From the NCBI GenBank assembly GCA_900321035.1, contig ONUH01000006.1, positions 1 to 64,000 on the forward strand: DNA of 64,000 nt. Reading direction: 5' to 3'. The translations under genes and the position numbers were made by a program. Position 1 is the stretch's first letter. Every line of letters begins with the position of its first letter. The DNA is from an uncultured Selenomonadales bacterium. Lineage in GTDB: Bacteria; Bacillota; Negativicutes; Selenomonadales; Selenomonadaceae. The notes under the pieces were generated by a model. It was given only the letters and a program-made list of their open reading frames with translations. It made no database searches and was not told the origin of the DNA. Below, one piece after another: positions 7,081 through 50,290 of this stretch.

Positions 7081-7155
7081 TGGTGACTCCTAGGGGATTC
7101 GAACCCCTGAACCCGCCGTGAGAGGGCGGTGTCTTAACCACTTGACGAAGGAGCC
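7081..7155 (-). tRNA. tRNA-Glu (anticodon CUC)
   Basis: Read on the minus strand, the 75-nt gene begins GGCTCCTTCGTCAAGTGG and ends with encoded CCA. The acceptor stem, D arm, anticodon stem CCGCC/GGCGG with loop CTCTCAC, and T arm AGGGGTTCGAATCCCCT all fold. Anticodon CUC reads GAG. It lies about 50 nt downstream of gltX, its own synthetase, in the same direction. Confidence 0.97.
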
Positions 7156-13256: not shown

Positions 13257-15686
13257 TTACGGCAAGACGGGCCTCCCGTTTGCGTCGTCGTACGTCGCCG
13301 TGCAGGAAGGATAATTCGAGCAGCCCCAGAAACCGCCGTTTTTCCCGCGCACGAAACGAAGAGAACCTTCCTTGCAGTGCGGACAGAGGAACTTGCTCTT
13401 CCTCTCCGGCGTCCCCATGCGCTCCATCGGCGCAGCAGAATATTTCGGCTTGTCGCCCCATCTCGGACGCGCCTGCGGCGAAGCCGGCCGTCCCCCGTAA
13501 GAGCTGACGGAAAGGTTCGGCTGATACTCGGCGAGGAACGCCGCCATCTCCTCCTCGCTGAGTCCCGGCGCGCTGCTTTGCCAATCGCTTTGCGAAACGC
13601 TTTTCCGGGGATTCGGCGCGGACGGCGCGCGAAAATCGTCGGACGACACCGTGCGCGGCGCGCCCGCCCGGGCCGAAACCCGGGACAGATCCGGCTTCCC
13701 TTCCCGATCCGGCGCGGTCATCCGGCAGCGCGGAAAATTCGTGCAGCCCCAGAACGCGCCGTTTTTCCCCTGCTTCTTCGTCAGCACGCCCCGTCCGCAG
13801 CGCGGGCATTTCGTCTCTTCTTCCGCCGCCGGAAGCACGGCCGTTGCCGCCGCGCCGCAAAGAGCGCGGGTGAACGCGATCTGCTCGTCCAGGAACGCGT
13901 CGAGCGTTCCCTCGCCCTCCGCCATCGCGTGGAGCGCGTCCTCCCACACGGCGGTCTTGTCGGGATACGTCATATCCTCCGGCAGCGAATCGACGAGAAA
14001 CTCCGCCGCCGCCGTCGGCGTCAGCACCTTTTTCTTCCCCGCCGCCTGCAAAAACCGTCGCCGGATCAAATCGTCGATAATCGTCGCCCGCGTCGCCTCA
14101 GTGCCGATGCCCGACACCGCGCGCAGCGTCTTCTTCGCCGCCTCGTCCCGCACGAATTTGTGGATGTCCTTCATCGCCGCCAATAGCGTGGATGGCGTAA
14201 ACCGCTGGGGCGGCTTCGTTTCCTTCTCCGCAAGTTTTCCCGACTGCCACGCCGCCGCGTCCTTTTTCTTCATCGCTGGAAGCTCTCCGCTTTCCTCGTT
14301 CTCCTCGCCCTCGGGCTTCTCGGCGTTCTTGCCCGCGTAAAGCGCTTTCCATCCCGCATCGCGCACCACGCGGCCGCTGGCCGTGAACCGCTCCCCGGCG
14401 AAAGAAATCTCCACCTTCGTCTGGTCATAAACGTGCACGGGATAAAACTGGGCAAGATACGCCTGCGCGATCAGGAAATAAATATTCCGCTGCATCGGCG
14501 TCAGCGTATCCAGCTTCACCTTCACCGTCGTCGGGATGATTGCGTGGTGCGCGGTAATCTTCTTGTCGTTCCACGCGCGGCTCTTGACCTTCGCGTCCGC
14601 GCCGCCCGCCCATGCCGCCAGCTGTTCATCGCCCGTCTGCGCCAAATTGGCGAGAATCGTCCCCGCCGCGCGGAACTGGTTCGTCGGCAAATACTCGCAG
14701 TCCGAACGCGGATAGGTCGTCAGCTTCCGCTCGTAAAGCTGCTGCGCCGTGTCGAGGACCTGCTGCGGCTCGTAGCCGAACCGTTTGCCCGCCAGGACCT
14801 GAAGCGTCGAGAGCGCGAACGGGAGCCGCTGGGGCTCTTCTTTTTTTGCTTTCTTGTAATCGACGACGACGCCCTGTTCTCCCGCATCCTTCGCCGCCGA
14901 AAACGCCGCCAGCTTTTCCTCCGCCGCGTCCCTGTCCACGAGCCGCCCTTCGCTGTCGAGGCCGCGCTGCTCCTCCGAGGGCTTCCACGCCGCCGCGAAG
15001 TTTCCGTTTTTATGCGCGAACTCCGCCTTGATCGAATAATGCTTGACAGGATGGAAATCCTTGATTTCCCGCTCCCGCCGCACCACGAGGGCCAGCGTCG
15101 GCGTCTTGACCCGTCCGATGGGCAGCACCGTTTTTCGTCCCGCACGCCGCGCCGCCAACGTATAAGCGCGGGAAAGATTCATGCCGATCAGCCAATCCGC
15201 CCGGGCGCGGGCCAGCGCCGACATTTTCAGCGGCGCGAAATCCCGGTTGTCGCGAAGGTCGGCCAGGGCCTCCTTCACGCTCTTCTCGTCGAGCGCGTTC
15301 AAAAGCAGCCGCTTCACCGGCTTTTTGTTGCCGACGAAGTCCAGCACCTCGTCCACTAATAGCTGCCCCTCCCGATCCGGGTCGCCCGCGTGGACGATCT
15401 CGTCGGCCTTCGCGATCAGATTCTTCACGATCCCGAACTGCTGCGCGCTGGATTCGGAAATAATCAGCTTCCACGTCTCCGGCACGATAGGCAGCACGTT
15501 CTCCGTCCATTTTTTATAGGCCGCGTCGTACTCCTCCGGCTCCGCCTGCCGCAGGATGTGGCCGTAACACCAGGTCACGATGCCTTCCGCCGTCTCGATG
15601 AAGCCGTTGCCGCTCCGCGCCGGCCCTTTCAGGCATTTCGCGATCTCGCGGCCCATGCTCGGCTTCTCCGCGATATATAAACGCAT
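13257..15686 (-). CDS. topB: DNA topoisomerase III
   Basis: This is a type IA topoisomerase that decatenates and relaxes single-strand-containing DNA. The TOPRIM domain starts RLYIAEKPSMGREIAKCLKG and includes the acidic HAGDPDREGQLL. The catalytic Tyr lies in TTYPRSDCEYLP near residue 320. Two C-terminal zinc-finger-like modules follow: CPRCGRGVLTKK...GCTNFPRC and CPHCKEGSLRF...GCSNYPSC. A Ser/Pro-rich linker separates them. The start at 15686 gives the canonical MRLYIAEKPS and follows AGGGATGG; a longer frame upstream has no support. At about 809 residues it is a long TopB, owing to the two finger modules. Confidence 0.95.
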   Translation of the reverse strand: MRLYIAEKPSMGREIAKCLKGPARSGNGFIETAEGIVTWCYGHILRQAEPEEYDAAYKKWTENVLPIVPETWKLIISESSAQQFGIVKNLIAKADEIVHAGDPDREGQLLVDEVLDFVGNKKPVKRLLLNALDEKSVKEALADLRDNRDFAPLKMSALARARADWLIGMNLSRAYTLAARRAGRKTVLPIGRVKTPTLALVVRREREIKDFHPVKHYSIKAEFAHKNGNFAAAWKPSEEQRGLDSEGRLVDRDAAEEKLAAFSAAKDAGEQGVVVDYKKAKKEEPQRLPFALSTLQVLAGKRFGYEPQQVLDTAQQLYERKLTTYPRSDCEYLPTNQFRAAGTILANLAQTGDEQLAAWAGGADAKVKSRAWNDKKITAHHAIIPTTVKVKLDTLTPMQRNIYFLIAQAYLAQFYPVHVYDQTKVEISFAGERFTASGRVVRDAGWKALYAGKNAEKPEGEENEESGELPAMKKKDAAAWQSGKLAEKETKPPQRFTPSTLLAAMKDIHKFVRDEAAKKTLRAVSGIGTEATRATIIDDLIRRRFLQAAGKKKVLTPTAAAEFLVDSLPEDMTYPDKTAVWEDALHAMAEGEGTLDAFLDEQIAFTRALCGAAATAVLPAAEEETKCPRCGRGVLTKKQGKNGAFWGCTNFPRCRMTAPDREGKPDLSRVSARAGAPRTVSSDDFRAPSAPNPRKSVSQSDWQSSAPGLSEEEMAAFLAEYQPNLSVSSYGGRPASPQARPRWGDKPKYSAAPMERMGTPERKSKFLCPHCKEGSLRFVRGKNGGFWGCSNYPSCTATYDDANGRPVLP

Positions 15687-41350: not shown

Positions 41351-42337
41351 ATGAAACGGCAGATGACTGATTTGAAAAAAACTTGGCTCGCCGTCCTGCT
41401 GACGGCGATATTCACCGCGCTTTTCACGGCGGCTGCGCTCTCTGCAGGAGCGGCATACGTTGCCGGCTGTTTTTTCATCGACCTCGCGCTGAAGCGCGGG
41501 ACCGCGTCCAACCCTGACGCGCCGCCCGCCATTTTCCGCAGCGCCATCGAGGGCAACGGCAGATCCATCCGCCCCGCGCCGAAGCCGAACTTCGACGCGG
41601 AAAGCTGGACGCTTCGCTCCTTCGACGGCCTCACGCTCCGCGCCACGCATTTCGAGCCGGAGCAGGACAGCCGCCGCTGGGTGCTACTGCTCCACGGCTA
41701 CGGACTGACGCAGGCGCATGTATGGAGCTACGCGGCCGCGTACCTCGCCCACGGCTACCATGTCCTGACGCCCGACCTCCGCGCCTCGGGCGCGAGCGAT
41801 GGCGTCTATACCACCATGGGGGCTTTGGAGTCGCGCGACGCCGCAGACTGGGCACGGCGCATCGTCTCCGCCGACCCGGACGCGCGCATCGTGCTGCACG
41901 GGGTTTCCATGGGCGCGGCGGCGGTCATGCTCGCGGCGGGGGAAAAGAATCTCCCCGCGAACGTCTCCGCCGTCGTCGAGGACAGCGGCTACGCCAACAT
42001 CTACGACCTTTTCGCCCTCGAGCTCGACAAGCTCCTCTCCCTGCCTGCCTATCCGCTGCTCGACGCCGCCGACCTCGTCTGCGAGCGCCGCGCGGGCTTC
42101 TCCTTCCGAAAGGCGGCGCCCGTCGAAGCCGTCCGGCGTTCCCGTCTGCCGATTCTCTTCATTCATGGAACCGCCGACCGCCTCGTCCCCTTTTCCATGA
42201 TGCAAACGCTCTACGAAGCCTCCCCTTCCCCGAAGAAGGAAACGCTCGTCATCGACAAGATCGGCCACGGCGCGCTCTATCAGGCGAAAAATTATTTCCC
42301 CACGGTATTCCGGTTCACGGACAAATGGACGGACTGA
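41351..42337 (+). CDS. Membrane-anchored alpha/beta hydrolase
   Basis: The 328-residue protein has an N-terminal membrane helix (WLAVLLTAIFTALFTAAAL) and an alpha/beta-hydrolase domain. The oxyanion and nucleophile motifs are LLLHGYGLTQ and LHGVSMGAAA (Ser), the acid is in FIHGTADRLVPF, and the His in IGHGALYQ. The layout matches bacterial BAAT/serine aminopeptidase S33-like proteins. Substrate unknown. The ATG lies immediately after the terminator with no obvious ribosome-binding site; a start a few codons further in (41363, MTDLKK) is possible. Confidence 0.85.
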   Translation: MKRQMTDLKKTWLAVLLTAIFTALFTAAALSAGAAYVAGCFFIDLALKRGTASNPDAPPAIFRSAIEGNGRSIRPAPKPNFDAESWTLRSFDGLTLRATHFEPEQDSRRWVLLLHGYGLTQAHVWSYAAAYLAHGYHVLTPDLRASGASDGVYTTMGALESRDAADWARRIVSADPDARIVLHGVSMGAAAVMLAAGEKNLPANVSAVVEDSGYANIYDLFALELDKLLSLPAYPLLDAADLVCERRAGFSFRKAAPVEAVRRSRLPILFIHGTADRLVPFSMMQTLYEASPSPKKETLVIDKIGHGALYQAKNYFPTVFRFTDKWTD

Positions 42338-42345
42338 ACAAGAAT

Positions 42346-42386
42346 TAGTCAATTACGATTTGGCAAATCATAATTGACTATTTTTT
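42346..42386. terminator. Terminator after the hydrolase gene
   Basis: TAGTCAATTACGATT / AATCATAATTGACTA stem with one mismatch, a 5-nt loop and six T. The following 42387-42515 holds no recognizable feature. Confidence 0.85.
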
Positions 42387-42515
42387 CGCCTTTCTCCCCG
42401 CCTTTCCGGTTGTCGCGAGATTCCCCTGCGCCTCGCGCTGCGCCGTCTCTGTAACGAACGGCGGCTGCGCGTTTTCCTTTCGCCTCCGGAAACCGCCGAT
42501 CAAAAAAATTTGCCT

Positions 42516-42545
42516 ATGGCAAAATCGGACCATTTGCGTTATAAT
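42516..42545 (+). promoter_or_regulatory. Promoter of the hydG locus, member of the shared promoter family
   Basis: TATAAT (42540-42545) is perfect. ATGGCA stands 18 nt upstream at the -35 position, inside the inverted repeat TTTGCC-TAT-GGCAAA. The spacer shares 12 of 18 positions with the upstream decarboxylase promoter. Confidence 0.65.
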
Positions 42546-42549
42546 ACTT

Positions 42550-42678
42550 CAAAGCAAGGCGGAAGGCCCGAATCTGTCGCAAAATCGCTTTTTCTGCACA
42601 GATTCTTTCTGACGCCGAGCGCGGGAAAAATGCACACCCAAACTCCCTGCGACGCCTTGCGGGGGGTTTTTATTTTTT
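42550..42678 (+). ncRNA. Structured leader RNA with terminator before the hydG operon
   Basis: About 130 nt lie between the promoter and the first gene's ribosome-binding site. GCAAGGCG (42554-42561) is exactly complementary to CGCCTTGC (42653-42660), closing a domain that contains a second perfect stem GAATCTGT / ACAGATTC (42570-42577, 42598-42605). A terminator hairpin CTCCCTGC / GCGGGGGG (42643-42666) with a U tract uses the same 42659-42660 bases and puts CGCCTT in its loop. The two structures exclude each other, as in a riboswitch or attenuator. I could not match it to a known class. A small regulatory RNA ending at this terminator is the alternative. Confidence 0.55.
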
Positions 42679-42706: not shown

Positions 42707-42967
42707 ATGGAAAACAGAGTGGCCTTGATCGGCATCATCGTCAGCAACCGTTCCGCGGCGGAGAAGATGAACGCAATCCTGCACGAGTATGGGGACTACA
42801 TCATCGGGCGCATGGGCGTTCCGTACAAGAAGCGCGGCATTTCCGTCATCAGCGTCGCGCTGGACGCTCCGGCGGACGTGGTCAGCGCCCTGTCCGGCAA
42901 GCTCGGCGCGCTGAAAGACGTCAGCACGAAGACGGTCTATACGAAGACCTCCGACGAGGAGGAGTGA
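42707..42967 (+). CDS. TM1266-type putative regulator of the iron-only hydrogenase system
   Basis: The 86-residue protein is a small ferredoxin-like/ACT-type domain: RVALIGIIVSNRSAAEKMNA, HEYGDYIIGRMGVPY and GISVISVALDAPADVVSALS. It matches the TM1266 (NikR-C-like) family, often encoded beside [FeFe]-hydrogenase maturases and called an iron-only hydrogenase system regulator, though the ligand is unknown. The start at 42707 follows GGGGGGA; an upstream in-frame ATG (42692) would overlap that site. It ends 5 nt before hydG and is surely co-transcribed with it. Confidence 0.88.
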   Translation: MENRVALIGIIVSNRSAAEKMNAILHEYGDYIIGRMGVPYKKRGISVISVALDAPADVVSALSGKLGALKDVSTKTVYTKTSDEEE

Positions 42968-42972
42968 CTGCC

Positions 42973-44403
42973 ATGGAAAACTGGAAATACGATCCGAAAT
43001 CCCCGCACGCCGAGGAATTCATTCATCACGGCGAGATCACGGACACCCTCGCCTACGCCGAGGAAAATAAGTCGAACCGCGAACTGATCGAGGGGCTTTT
43101 GAACCGCGCCGCTGACTGCAAGGGACTGACCCACCGTGAGGCTGCGGTACTTCTCGCCTGCGATCAGCCCGATCTGAACGAGAAAATGTTCTCGCTGGCG
43201 AAAAAAATCAAGGAAGAGCTGTACGGGCAGCGCATCGTGCTGTTCGCGCCGCTGTATCTGTCGAATTACTGCATCAACAGCTGCGTCTATTGCCCGTATC
43301 ACGCGAAGAACAAGAACATTCGCCGCAAGAAGCTGACGCAGGAGGAAATCCGCCGCGAAGTCGTCGCGCTCCAGGACATGGGACATAAGCGTCTCGCGCT
43401 GGAGACCGGCGAGGACCCTGTAAACAACCCGATCGAGTACGTGCTGGAAAGCATTAAGACCATTTACTCCATCAAGCATAAAAACGGCGCGATCCGGCGC
43501 GTCAACGTCAATATCGCCGCGACGACGGTGGAGAATTACCGCCGCCTGAAAGAGGCGGGTATCGGCACGTACATCCTTTTCCAGGAAACGTATCACAAGG
43601 AGAATTATGAAAAGCTGCACCCCGCCGGACCGAAGCACGACTACGCATGGCACACGGAGGCCATGGACCGCGCCATGGAGGGCGGCATCGACGACGTGGG
43701 CTGCGGCGTGCTGTTCGGGCTGAATCTGTACCGCTATGATTTCGTCGGGCTCCTGATGCACGCCGAGCATTTGGAGGCCGTGCACGGCGTCGGGCCGCAC
43801 ACTATCAGCGTGCCGCGCATCCGCCCCGCCGACGACATCGATCCTTCCGCGTTTTCCAACGCCATCGACGACGACACCTTCGCGAAGCTCGTCGCGGTCA
43901 TCCGCATCGCCGTGCCATACACGGGCATGATCGTCTCGACGCGGGAATCGCAGGAGAGCCGCGAGCGCGTCCTCGACCTCGGCATCTCGCAGATCTCCGG
44001 CGCGTCCTGCACCAGCGTCGGCGGCTACGAGAAGAAGGAGCGCCCAGAGGAAAATTCCGCCCAGTTCGATGTGAACGACACGCGGACGCTGGACGAGGTC
44101 GTCCAGTGGCTCCTCGATCTCGGCTATGTGCCGAGCTTCTGCACGGCCTGCTACCGCGCGGGACGCACCGGCGACCGTTTCATGGCGCTTTGCAAGAGCG
44201 GGCAGATCAAGAACTGCTGCCTGCCCAACGCATTGATGACGCTGAAGGAATACCTGGAGGACTACGCCAGCGAGGAAACGCAGAAGAAAGGCGAGGCGGT
44301 CATCAAGGCGCAGATGGAGGAAATCCCCAACCCGGCAGTCCGCGCGAAAGCGGCGGAATACCTGAAAGAGCTGCACGACGGCATGAGAGATTTCCGGTTC
44401 TGA
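42973..44403 (+). CDS. hydG: [FeFe]-hydrogenase H-cluster radical SAM maturase HydG
   Basis: HydG is a radical-SAM tyrosine lyase that makes the CO and CN ligands of the H-cluster. The radical-SAM motif CINSCVYCPY lies near residue 99. FQETYHKENYEKLHP, typical of HydG/ThiH, is present. The HydG-specific C-terminal cluster site is CTACYRAGRTGDRFM plus a later Cys in KNCCLPNA, which distinguishes it from ThiH. The 476-residue length is normal. The ATG at 42973 has GAGGAGGAG upstream. hydE, hydF and a hydrogenase hydA are absent from the window, so the maturation genes are split in this genome. Confidence 0.96.
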   Translation: MENWKYDPKSPHAEEFIHHGEITDTLAYAEENKSNRELIEGLLNRAADCKGLTHREAAVLLACDQPDLNEKMFSLAKKIKEELYGQRIVLFAPLYLSNYCINSCVYCPYHAKNKNIRRKKLTQEEIRREVVALQDMGHKRLALETGEDPVNNPIEYVLESIKTIYSIKHKNGAIRRVNVNIAATTVENYRRLKEAGIGTYILFQETYHKENYEKLHPAGPKHDYAWHTEAMDRAMEGGIDDVGCGVLFGLNLYRYDFVGLLMHAEHLEAVHGVGPHTISVPRIRPADDIDPSAFSNAIDDDTFAKLVAVIRIAVPYTGMIVSTRESQESRERVLDLGISQISGASCTSVGGYEKKERPEENSAQFDVNDTRTLDEVVQWLLDLGYVPSFCTACYRAGRTGDRFMALCKSGQIKNCCLPNALMTLKEYLEDYASEETQKKGEAVIKAQMEEIPNPAVRAKAAEYLKELHDGMRDFRF

Positions 44404-47122: not shown

Positions 47123-47282
47123 TATACATAAAAAAATGAATAGAAAAGAAGGATTTTCTTCATCTATGTCAAAATAATAAATAAGTATGATTTCGTTTTC
47201 CGGCAGTTTCGCATAGCATCGTCTGTCTATGCACGCCGAAATTTCCGAGAATCCAAACGACATGGCACAAGGGGGAAGCGCT

Positions 47283-48377
47283 GTGGAAAAACGGGAAAGC
47301 TTATGGGAAGCCTACCTCCGGCGGGGATTGAGCCGCCGCAGCTTCATCAAAGGGTGCGTCGCATTGACGAGCCTGATGGGGCTTTCGACAGACATGGTCT
47401 CGAAAGTTGTGGAGGCGGCGGAGAAGAAACCGCTTCCGGTCGTGATTTGGCTGCACGGCCATGAATGCACGGGCTGCGACGAAGCCTTTATCCGCTCCGC
47501 GTCGCCGCTGGCGTCCGACCTTGTGCTTTCGAGCATCGCGCTCGAGTACGATCATCTTTTGAGCGCGGCCTGCGGCGAGCCCTTTGAGCGTCATTTGGAG
47601 GAAACGATAAAGAAATATTGGGGCAATTACATTTTGGCGGTAGAGGGCGCGGTCTCGACGACGGACAACGGCGTTTACTGCATGTCCGGCGGCAAGCCCT
47701 TCGTCGATACGTTCCAGCGCGTCGCCAAGGGCGCGATGGCGATCATCGCTTACGGCACCTGCGCGGTGTCGGGCGGCATCCAGGGCGCGAAGCCGAATCC
47801 GACCGGCTCCAGCGGCGTCGGCCATTACACCGGCACGAAGCCCATCGTGAACGTCCCGGGCTGCCCGCCGATTCCCGAGGTCATGACCGGCGTGGTCATG
47901 CACGTGGCCCTGTTCGGCAAGCTGCCGCCGCTTGACAGCGAGAACCGCCCGAAGCAGTTCTTCGGCAACCGCATCCACGACACCTGCTATCGCCGCCCGT
48001 TCTTTGACGCGGGTATGTTCGCGGACCGTTACGACGACGCGGGCGCGAAGGCGGGCTGGTGCCTTTACCGCCTCGGCTGCCGGGGGCCGGAGACTTACGC
48101 CTCCTGCGGCAACCTGCGCTGGTATCAGGGCATGAGTTATCCGATTCAGTCGGGCGCGGCCTGCATAGGCTGCGCGAACAGCAATTTCTGGGATTCCGGC
48201 GCATCCTTCTCGGAGCGTCTGCCGAAATACGGCCCGCTGGGCGACGTGGACACCATCGGCGCGGGCCTCGCTATCGCCTCGACGGCGGGCGTCGCTCTCC
48301 ACGGCGCGATGAGCGTCATCCAAAAGCAAAAGCGCGCAGCCGAAGAAGCCGAAGCAGAGGGAGGAGCGCATAAATGA
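47283..48377 (+). CDS. hyaA: [NiFe]-hydrogenase small subunit with Tat signal
   Basis: The small subunit carries the Fe-S relay of a membrane-bound uptake hydrogenase. A twin-arginine signal (LSRRSFIKGCVALTSLMGLS) directs export of the folded complex. Cluster ligands: HECTGCDE, GTCAVSGG and PGCPPIP (proximal), then Cys and His residues in HDTCYRRPFFDAGMFADRYD, GWCLYRLGCRGPETYASC and CIGCANSNFWD. The proximal site has Gly where O2-tolerant enzymes have two extra Cys, so a standard oxygen-sensitive type is expected. GTG at 47283 follows AGGGGGAAG; ATGs at 47262 and 47229 are less supported. It overlaps hyaB by 4 nt. Confidence 0.95.
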   Translation: MEKRESLWEAYLRRGLSRRSFIKGCVALTSLMGLSTDMVSKVVEAAEKKPLPVVIWLHGHECTGCDEAFIRSASPLASDLVLSSIALEYDHLLSAACGEPFERHLEETIKKYWGNYILAVEGAVSTTDNGVYCMSGGKPFVDTFQRVAKGAMAIIAYGTCAVSGGIQGAKPNPTGSSGVGHYTGTKPIVNVPGCPPIPEVMTGVVMHVALFGKLPPLDSENRPKQFFGNRIHDTCYRRPFFDAGMFADRYDDAGAKAGWCLYRLGCRGPETYASCGNLRWYQGMSYPIQSGAACIGCANSNFWDSGASFSERLPKYGPLGDVDTIGAGLAIASTAGVALHGAMSVIQKQKRAAEEAEAEGGAHK

Positions 48378-50290
48378 AACATGTAACGATTGATCCGGTC
48401 ACGCGCATCGAGGGACATCTGCGCGTGGAAATGACGGTGGACGAAGGCAGCGGCAAGGTCACGGACGCACTTTCCAGCGGCACGGCCTGGCGCGGCCTCG
48501 AACTCATCATGAACGGCCGCGACCCCCGGGACGCCTGGGCGTATATCCAGCGCATCTGCGGCGTCTGCACGACGGCCCACGCGCTGGCGTCGGTGCGTGC
48601 CGTCGAGGACGCGCTCGGCATCAAGATTCCGAAGAACGCCAATTATATCCGCAATATCATGGCGGCGTCGCTGACGGTGCAGGACCATATCGTCCATTTC
48701 TACCACCTGCACGCCCTCGACTGGGTCAGCCCCGTCGAGGCGCTGAAGGCCGACCCCGCGGCGACGGCGAACCTGCAAAACACGGTGCTGAACGCCTACC
48801 AGCTCCCCTTCCGCGCGCCGAACACCTCAGACACCGAGGCGTACCCGAAAGCGTTCCCGGAAGCGACGCCCGCTTATTTCAAGGCCATCAAGGACAAGGT
48901 GCAGGCAATCGTCCAGAGCGGGCAGCTCGGCATCTTCGCCGCCCAATGGTGGGACCATCCCGACTATCAGCTTTTGCCGCCTGAGGTTCACTTGATGGCG
49001 GTGGCGCATTACTTGGAAATGCTCGACAAGCAGCGTGAGCTCGTCACGCCCCACGTCGTTTTCGGCGGCAAGAACCCGCACCCGCACTACATCGTCGGCG
49101 GCATGCCCTGCTCGATTTCCCTCGAGGACGGCAACGCCCCGGTGAACACGGCGCGTCTCGCCATCGTCGACCGGGCGATCAATCTTGCCCGCACCCTTTC
49201 CAACACCTTCTATCTGCCCGACCTGCTCGCCATCGGTCATCTGTATGTCCAAAAGGGCATGACGGACGGCGGCGGTCTCGCGAAGACGCGGGTACTGGGC
49301 TTCGGCGCGTACCCGATGGACGCATACTCCGGCACGGCGAACGGCGATTTCTTCCGTCAGTGCCTGATCCGCTGCAACGGCGTCGTCGAGAATTTCGGCG
49401 CGGGCGCGGCGCAGGCGAAATTCACCCCGCTGACGGCGGAAGACCTCAGCAACCCCGAAGCCTTCAACGAAGGCGTCGCGCACGCCTGGTACGAATATCC
49501 GGGGGCGAAAGCGGACAAGGCGCTCCATCCTTGGGACGGCGTCACCGAAGCAAAATTCACCGCGCCGAAGGTCGGCACGCCCACCGACTGGAAGGAGCTC
49601 GACGAGAAGAGCAAGTATTCGTGGCTCAAGACGCCGAAATGGCACGGTAAGCTCTGCGAAGTCGGACCGCTGGCGCGCTATATCATTATCTACACCCGCG
49701 CCCAGCAGGGCATGCTGCCTGACCCGACATGGGCGGAAAAAATGATGATCGATCAAATCGACGCCGTGTCGAAGGTGCTGAACCTGCCGCCTCACGTTTG
49801 GCTGCCGACGATGGTTGGCCGTACCGCGGCCCGCGCGCTCGACGCGCAGCTCAACGCGGAAATCGCGAAATTCTTCTTCGACCAGCTCATCGCCAACCTC
49901 AAAGCCGGCGACACGCAGGTCGCGAACATGGCGAAATGGGAGCCTTCCGAATGGCCGAAAATGGCGAAGGGCGTCGGCCTCTACGAAGCGCCGCGCGGCG
50001 CGCTCAGCCACTGGGTAAACATTGAGAGCGGCTCCATCACGAATTACCAGTGCATCGTGCCGACGACGTGGAACGCCTGCCCGCGCGACGATAAGGCGGG
50101 GCACGGCGCCTACGAGGCGGCGATGATGGACACCCGGGTCAAGGTGCCCGACAAGCCGCTGGAAATCGCCAAGGTCGTCCGCTCCTTCGACCCGTGCATG
50201 GCGTGCGCGACGCACATTTACAACCCTGAGGGCGAAAAGCTCCGGGTCGTCACCACCGATCCCTACACGGGAACCCGCGTCGAATCGTGA
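48374..50290 (+). CDS. hyaB: [NiFe]-hydrogenase large subunit
   Basis: The 638-residue catalytic subunit holds the Ni-Fe(CN)2CO site. The N-terminal ligand pair is in RICGVCTTAH (about residues 56-65) and the C-terminal pair in DPCMACATH (about 606-614). A tail of 24 residues follows this His; it should be removed by the HyaD-type protease (369-935) after nickel insertion. GHLRVEMTVDEGSGKV near the start is typical. The group fits membrane-bound H2-uptake hydrogenases (group 1). It is encoded in the order small-large-cytochrome, and the start overlaps hyaA (ATGA). Confidence 0.97.
   Translation: MKHVTIDPVTRIEGHLRVEMTVDEGSGKVTDALSSGTAWRGLELIMNGRDPRDAWAYIQRICGVCTTAHALASVRAVEDALGIKIPKNANYIRNIMAASLTVQDHIVHFYHLHALDWVSPVEALKADPAATANLQNTVLNAYQLPFRAPNTSDTEAYPKAFPEATPAYFKAIKDKVQAIVQSGQLGIFAAQWWDHPDYQLLPPEVHLMAVAHYLEMLDKQRELVTPHVVFGGKNPHPHYIVGGMPCSISLEDGNAPVNTARLAIVDRAINLARTLSNTFYLPDLLAIGHLYVQKGMTDGGGLAKTRVLGFGAYPMDAYSGTANGDFFRQCLIRCNGVVENFGAGAAQAKFTPLTAEDLSNPEAFNEGVAHAWYEYPGAKADKALHPWDGVTEAKFTAPKVGTPTDWKELDEKSKYSWLKTPKWHGKLCEVGPLARYIIIYTRAQQGMLPDPTWAEKMMIDQIDAVSKVLNLPPHVWLPTMVGRTAARALDAQLNAEIAKFFFDQLIANLKAGDTQVANMAKWEPSEWPKMAKGVGLYEAPRGALSHWVNIESGSITNYQCIVPTTWNACPRDDKAGHGAYEAAMMDTRVKVPDKPLEIAKVVRSFDPCMACATHIYNPEGEKLRVVTTDPYTGTRVES

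Follow-up and report, generated by a model that had tools for sequence, protein, structure and literature searches.

A conserved attenuator-like leader RNA upstream of TM1266 and hydG, with TM1266 as its candidate effector

Genes and features at the hydG locus

Within the window, the whole 64-kb stretch of DNA analysed here, the genes of a TM1266 family protein and of the hydrogenase maturase HydG follow a promoter and a structured leader (Table 1). Both gene identities given in the original prediction were borne out by their family models. The product of the first gene scored 112.9 bits against TIGR03959 (cut-off 60.8) and 111.2 bits against PF21699 (cut-off 27), and is a relative of the solved structure 2nzc. 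The promoter reads ATGGCA-18-TATAAT with its 3' end at 42545. In all eight leaders aligned from this genus (the window and seven further genomes), the -10 box was located 6-8 nt upstream of the GCAA at the start of the conserved motif; transcription is therefore expected to start just 5' of the motif, which would open the transcript. In the window, RNA polymerase would start at about 42551-42553.

Several other elements were observed around the operon. The palindrome TTTTGCC-TAT-GGCAAAA covers the -35 region in the window (42508-42524) and in loci L235 and L002, and recurs at two places in genome G008, ahead of hydG and within a similar promoter of a parA-like gene; it is possibly an operator. 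A long palindrome, TAGTCAATTA..TAATTGACTA, located at 42343-42380 and 3' of an alpha/beta hydrolase gene, is probably the terminator of that gene. Subunits resembling those of [NiFe]-hydrogenases are encoded at 47229-50290, 3 kb 3' of hydG, and hydE is unlinked to hydG (G000:C11:133636-134622) and has no such leader.

Table 1 Features of the TM1266-hydG leader and operon in the window.
Feature	Position	Strand	Remarks
Promoter	42508-42545	+	Palindrome TTTGCC-TAT-GGCAAA over the -35 region; TATAAT at 42540-42545
GCAAGGCG	42554-42561	+	5' strand of both the motif helix and the antiterminator
GAAGG, conserved half of the tandem-GA element	42562-42566	+	Invariant in eight leaders; word also present in the wider motif
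Apical-loop insertion, lineage-specific, with the 8-bp hairpin GAATCTGT/ACAGATTC	42567-42605	+	Window and G003 only
CUGA-CGCC-GA-GC, 3' strand of the motif	42609-42620	+	Partner of GC-AA-GGCG-GA-AG; invariant but for one G/A site in eight leaders; CUGA also present in the wider motif
GCGCGGG, invariant	42619-42625	+	Can pair with the terminator 5' arm CCCUGCG (42645-42651)
Intrinsic terminator and T-rich tract	42640-42678	+	Stem 42640-42669, loop CGCC 42653-42656
CGCCUUGC, antiterminator partner of GCAAGGCG	42653-42660	+	Overlaps the terminator loop and 3' arm
TM1266 family protein, 86 aa	42707-42967	+	TIGR03959, PF21699; proposed trans-acting factor
hydG, [FeFe]-hydrogenase H-cluster radical SAM maturase	42964-44403	+	TIGR03955, 927 bits (cut-off 312)

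The leader adopts two mutually exclusive folds

The leader had been proposed to switch between two mutually exclusive folds, and this held: GCAAGGCG is the exact reverse complement of CGCCTTGC (42653-42660), and the terminator stem competes for the same bases. Some details of the proposal needed revision. The terminator exists, its stem comprising 13 pairs at 42640-42669 in place of the predicted 42643-42666; it shares TTGC (42657-42660) with the antiterminator, not only 42659-42660; and of the CGCCTT described as trapped in its loop, CGCC lies in the loop and TT belongs to the stem. The predicted 8-bp hairpin is present as well, GAATCTGT (42570-42577) being the exact reverse complement of ACAGATTC (42598-42605), and is conserved only in the window and genome G003.

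Folding of RNAs of increasing length separated the two states. An RNA ending at 42660 adopted the antiterminator fold (-36.2 kcal/mol), and one ending at 42676 adopted the motif plus terminator (-47.7 kcal/mol vs -37.6 kcal/mol for the antiterminator). Since the terminator state of the full-length RNA is about 10 kcal/mol more stable than the antiterminator state, switching must be kinetic. A lone 8-nt complement is common by chance, being found in 162 of 3000 dinucleotide shuffles of the leader. What exceeded chance was the fold energy of the leader (z -3.2 to -3.4), the retained antiterminator pairing, and the fact that all eight leaders conserve the flanking sequence.

Conservation of the motif within the genus

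All eight leaders of this rumen-type genus of Selenomonadaceae share GCAARGCGGAAGG, a loop and UNCUGACGCCRAGCGCGGGAAAA directly 3' of the -10 box, in surroundings that vary. The conserved element is a helix with a tandem G-A mismatch on either side (CU-GA/GA-AG), and it is kept where the terminator sequence changes. In the six leaders other than those of the window and G003 the loop measures 3-4 nt, and the GAATCTGT/ACAGATTC stem was consequently rejected as a core element; lacking a counterpart in these six relatives, it is a lineage-specific loop insertion of recent origin, which the window has in common with its closest relative alone.

The antiterminator partner is CGCCUUGC in the window, G003 and G010, GCCUUGC in G004, and UUUGC plus CCGC in the remaining leaders. 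A G-to-A change in the upstream strand of G002 (locus L016; GCAAG to GCAAA) is matched by a C-to-U change in the terminator (UUUGC), a compensated change that loses one pair of the motif helix. At the same locus of a further genome of the genus, G008, the leader and the TM1266 gene are both absent, and the promoter abuts a hydG that is 97% identical. A partial match to the genus leader model was also recorded elsewhere in the window, at 13338-13377 on the reverse strand (GCAAGG...GCGCGGGAAAAAC, E 1e-5).

A wider CUGA/GAAGG motif precedes TM1266 genes

Upstream of TM1266 genes in other Negativicutes, Clostridium frigoris, C. yunnanense, Victivallis vadensis and others, a motif of common layout was found, CUGA - stem - RA - RGG loop CCY - GA - stem' - GA - AGG, usually with UCG/CGA flanks. 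It represents a strongly covarying RNA of ~50 nt distributed in Negativicutes, Clostridia and Victivallis. A covariance model built from 14 sequences (R1) gave strong and specific matches in Negativicutes and Clostridia (E about 1e-24 to 1e-11), and a broader model (R2) added more. In the model-fitted alignment 97.7% of cells were paired, as against 35-62% in slid versions; doubly changed cells numbered 41 vs 8.2 +/- 2.3 in shuffles, and compensatory changes affected 7 of the 11 pairs. Of 128 distinct TM1266 upstream regions, 24 contained the motif according to a plain descriptor independent of these models, the controls giving 0-2 per set in ten shuffled sets and 0 on the reverse complement. 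A relaxed half-site was present in 29 of 77 further regions; shuffles gave 5.4, with 9 as the highest count, and the reverse strand gave 2. This bias to one strand indicates an RNA element. No hyd or TM1266 gene lies 3' of the weak model matches at L144-L150, L162, L164-L168 and L181-L184, which were therefore discounted as chance. More distant TM1266 upstream regions carry half-sites of the form CUGA-stem-RAGGG, sometimes as a tandem pair (L190, L191, L197, L201-L203, L206, L208, L210); the motif family extends beyond the models constructed here.

The motif is pseudo-twofold, a single helix with a tandem G-A mismatch at either end, and the window leader relates to the common layout by strand order. 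The CU-GA/GA-AG end is the open base of the helix in the common layout. In the window genus the order is reversed, so that the GAAGG strand comes before the CUGA strand and the loop closes this end. Described as strands CU-GA-stem-RA and RA-stem'-GA-AG-G in one helix, the wider motif is present in the window leader with its strands permuted. The permuted descriptor occurred once in the 64-kb window, at the leader, and in 0 of 3000 leader shuffles. R1 and R2, which describe the common layout, gave no match near 42554, as expected for a permuted strand order, and a model of the window-type layout (R3) matched only the genus and weak chance sequences, leaving other genera unmatched. In several Negativicutes leaders a hairpin with the window layout lies on the 5' side of the common core, and the stem of this hairpin covaries (GUUGU/GCGGC, AUCGU/ACGGU, UCCGU/ACGGA); the window genus therefore seems to retain the first domain only. 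From architecture, position and shared words, we infer that the window leader is homologous to the wider motif, which falls short of proof of common ancestry because R1 and R2 miss the window and R3 misses the other genera.

The motif tracks TM1266 rather than hydG

Among 100 relatives, genomes with a full-length class-A hydG were counted. The leader was present in 18 of the 19 Negativicutes hydG genomes with an adjacent TM1266 gene, including a weak match in G084 (E 0.018) and a leader between TM1266 and hydG in G098, and in none of the 18 with hydG but without TM1266 (Fisher p 1e-9; counted by genera, 11/12 vs 0/12, p 1e-5). TM1266 is encoded by each of the 13 genomes of the phylum sample that gave a clear match (R2 E < 1e-5), against a base rate of 213/398. 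The motif tracks the TM1266 gene, not hydG. Tyrosine, SAM, iron or hydrogenase status, suggested as the signal on the grounds that HydG follows, were accordingly not supported: hydG-only Negativicutes lack the motif, which is found ahead of hydE-hydF, of nitrogenase-like genes and of an ABC transporter as well.

Given the split in co-occurrence and the double loss in G008, the foremost candidate for a trans-acting factor is TM1266. The leader and the gene are adjacent, so that one deletion can remove both, and the association may reflect operon inheritance. Conserved basic residues of TM1266 (R4, R35, K65, K75 and K80) are compatible with RNA or ligand binding and prove neither.

Genes directly 3' of strong matches include TM1266-hydG, TM1266-hydE and TM1266-hydE-hydG, and TM1266-nifH-like-nifDK-like genes are found behind the motif as well. 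At L152 it precedes hydE-hydF in a unit without TM1266. An SsuA-like ABC transporter follows TM1266 at L169, L179 and L180 and follows the motif directly at L163, a weaker match later taken into R2. Autoregulation of the TM1266 transcript only was rejected as too narrow in view of L152 and L163.

Three loci (L172, L173 and L176, in G160, G225 and G039) carry the leader motif, in a diverged form at L176, then TM1266 and NifH-like and NifDK-like genes, with HypF further on in L172; here a nitrogenase-like operon is tied to a hydrogenase regulator. The transporter of L163, L169, L179 and L180 is SsuA/NMT1-like (IRxGGLKGPTxMGMV), and its substrate could reveal the signal. In G047, a histidine kinase that carries a PocR sensory domain comes after the second copy of TM1266 with its leader motif (L171).

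Search for known RNA families

With Rfam 15, the sole above-threshold match in the window was a tRNA at 7084-7155, and no cis-regulatory family was matched. Twenty related loci gave no match above the gathering threshold, and a permissive search of the window leader and L023 returned nothing credible, in agreement with the earlier remark that the sequence could not be matched to a known riboswitch class. Two sub-threshold matches were rejected: a histidine leader (E 5.6, score 15.7 vs a gathering score of 49), and the miRNA MIR169, which fell on the unrelated palindrome at 42335-42393. In the literature searched, in which subscription journals were partly covered and an earlier mention is possible, no leader RNA of hydG, hydE or TM1266 was described and RNA binding by TM1266 was not reported. 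With neither an Rfam match nor a description in this literature, the leader RNA is uncatalogued.

Proposed mechanism and alternative explanations

The counterpart of the conserved AAGGC(G) strand of the common layout is (C)GCCUU, located in the terminator further 3'; in the window AAGGCG faces CGCCUU. The pairing of the common layout is formed in 85.7% of cells vs 34-48% when slid, with a summed z of -7.6 over 39 leaders, and covariation in it did not exceed that of shuffles. Of the three stems put forward for a covariation check, one, the 8-bp hairpin, is not conserved. An intrinsic terminator stands ahead of the first gene, nearly all related leaders have one, and the conserved alternative pairing excludes it. 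The architecture of a controlled terminator and antiterminator is thus well supported, by conservation, by covariation of the shared motif and by the same logic in many genomes, and we consider it very probable that the leader is a conserved, uncatalogued regulatory attenuator RNA.

Because the motif strand is also the antiterminator strand in both layouts, a stabilised motif should favour termination. The first RNA made would fold into a compact helix with two tandem G-A mismatches (GC-AA-GGCG-GA-AGG / UCU-GA-CGCC-GA-GC). If this fold were held, GCAAGGCG would be hidden, the terminator at 42640-42669 would form, and TM1266-hydG would not be transcribed; if not, GCAAGGCG would capture the emerging CGCCUUGC, the terminator would be disrupted and transcription would continue. 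The most likely holding factor would be TM1266 itself, acting as a feedback repressor; we take it to be a small protein of the NikR/ACT-like type. It may also be the sensor of a hydrogenase-maturation signal, and the status of hydrogenase maturation could be what it senses. Autoregulated attenuation by TM1266 is the best explanation of the comparative data and is favoured over a metabolite riboswitch, although we would grant it no better than an even chance; that TM1266 operates the leader is an equally balanced proposition.

A metabolite or ion riboswitch is the most serious competitor, if a rather unlikely one. The tandem-GA helix would bind a small ligand of [FeFe]-hydrogenase cofactor assembly and so cause termination, TM1266 being merely a frequent first gene of the regulon. 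The units without TM1266 (hydE-hydF at L152 and the transporter at L163) fit this reading, as do the control of biosynthesis and uptake by one element, typical of riboswitches, and the strong conservation of unpaired positions. It is at odds with the absence of the motif from all hydG-only Negativicutes, with the presence of TM1266 in every motif-bearing genome of the phylum sample, and with a core of about 35 nt that is a simple pseudo-symmetric hairpin. Binding by another RNA-binding protein, or by the ribosome in leader-peptide attenuation, is improbable: short ORFs do cross the leader region and the histidine-leader match points the same way, but that match is far below its gathering score, inspection of the eight leaders by eye revealed no conserved short ORF, start or run of regulatory codons, and conservation follows RNA structure. 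Slightly less probable still is a constitutive partial terminator that fixes a low, signal-free read-through. The terminator is indeed very stable, yet such a device would need neither the conserved, covarying CUGA/GAAGG helix nor the conserved complementarity to the upstream strand, and the motif persists while the terminator sequence changes.

A broader reading, held with less confidence than the role of TM1266 at the leader and with more than the riboswitch, is that TM1266 proteins are unrecognised small RNA-binding attenuation regulators. They would act through a pseudo-twofold tandem-GA helix in two circularly permuted layouts, and would thereby tune operons for [FeFe]-hydrogenase maturation, nitrogenase-like operons and transporter operons among anaerobes.

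Comparison with known systems

Regulation of [FeFe]-hydrogenase active-site assembly in anaerobes is poorly known, and no target has so far been assigned to the putative regulator TM1266; the conserved RNA switch that precedes its gene is a direct candidate. Binding of the leader by TM1266 would reveal a new type of RNA-binding regulator, and binding by a metabolite a novel class of riboswitch tied to H-cluster assembly. Going by the motif, the regulon probably also includes an SsuA-like transporter and nitrogenase-like operons. The window protein belongs to the TM1266 family (TIGR03959/PF21699), which is annotated as putatively regulating iron-only hydrogenase systems; in the literature searched neither a target nor an RNA partner had been put forward for the family, and the leader RNA is proposed here.

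Like transcription-terminating riboswitches, the leader sets an aptamer-like conserved element against an antiterminator, in a regulon with biosynthesis and transport genes; unlike them, it matches no Rfam class and co-occurs strictly with one protein gene. Protein-controlled attenuators and antiterminators, such as those of PyrR and LicT/SacY, often have the controlling protein encoded by the operon. In the B. subtilis rplJL leader, attenuation is likewise controlled by a protein of the operon, L10 (PMC4538822). As in all of these systems, the fate of an intrinsic terminator is decided by a structured leader element that overlaps the antiterminator strand; the RNA motif, the putative binder (the TM1266 family) and the hydrogenase-maturation regulon are different. 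In Caldicellulosiruptor, hydG is controlled by the DNA-binding redox repressor Rex (PMC6391272). Regulation is at transcription in both cases, whereas the element in the window resides in the RNA leader.
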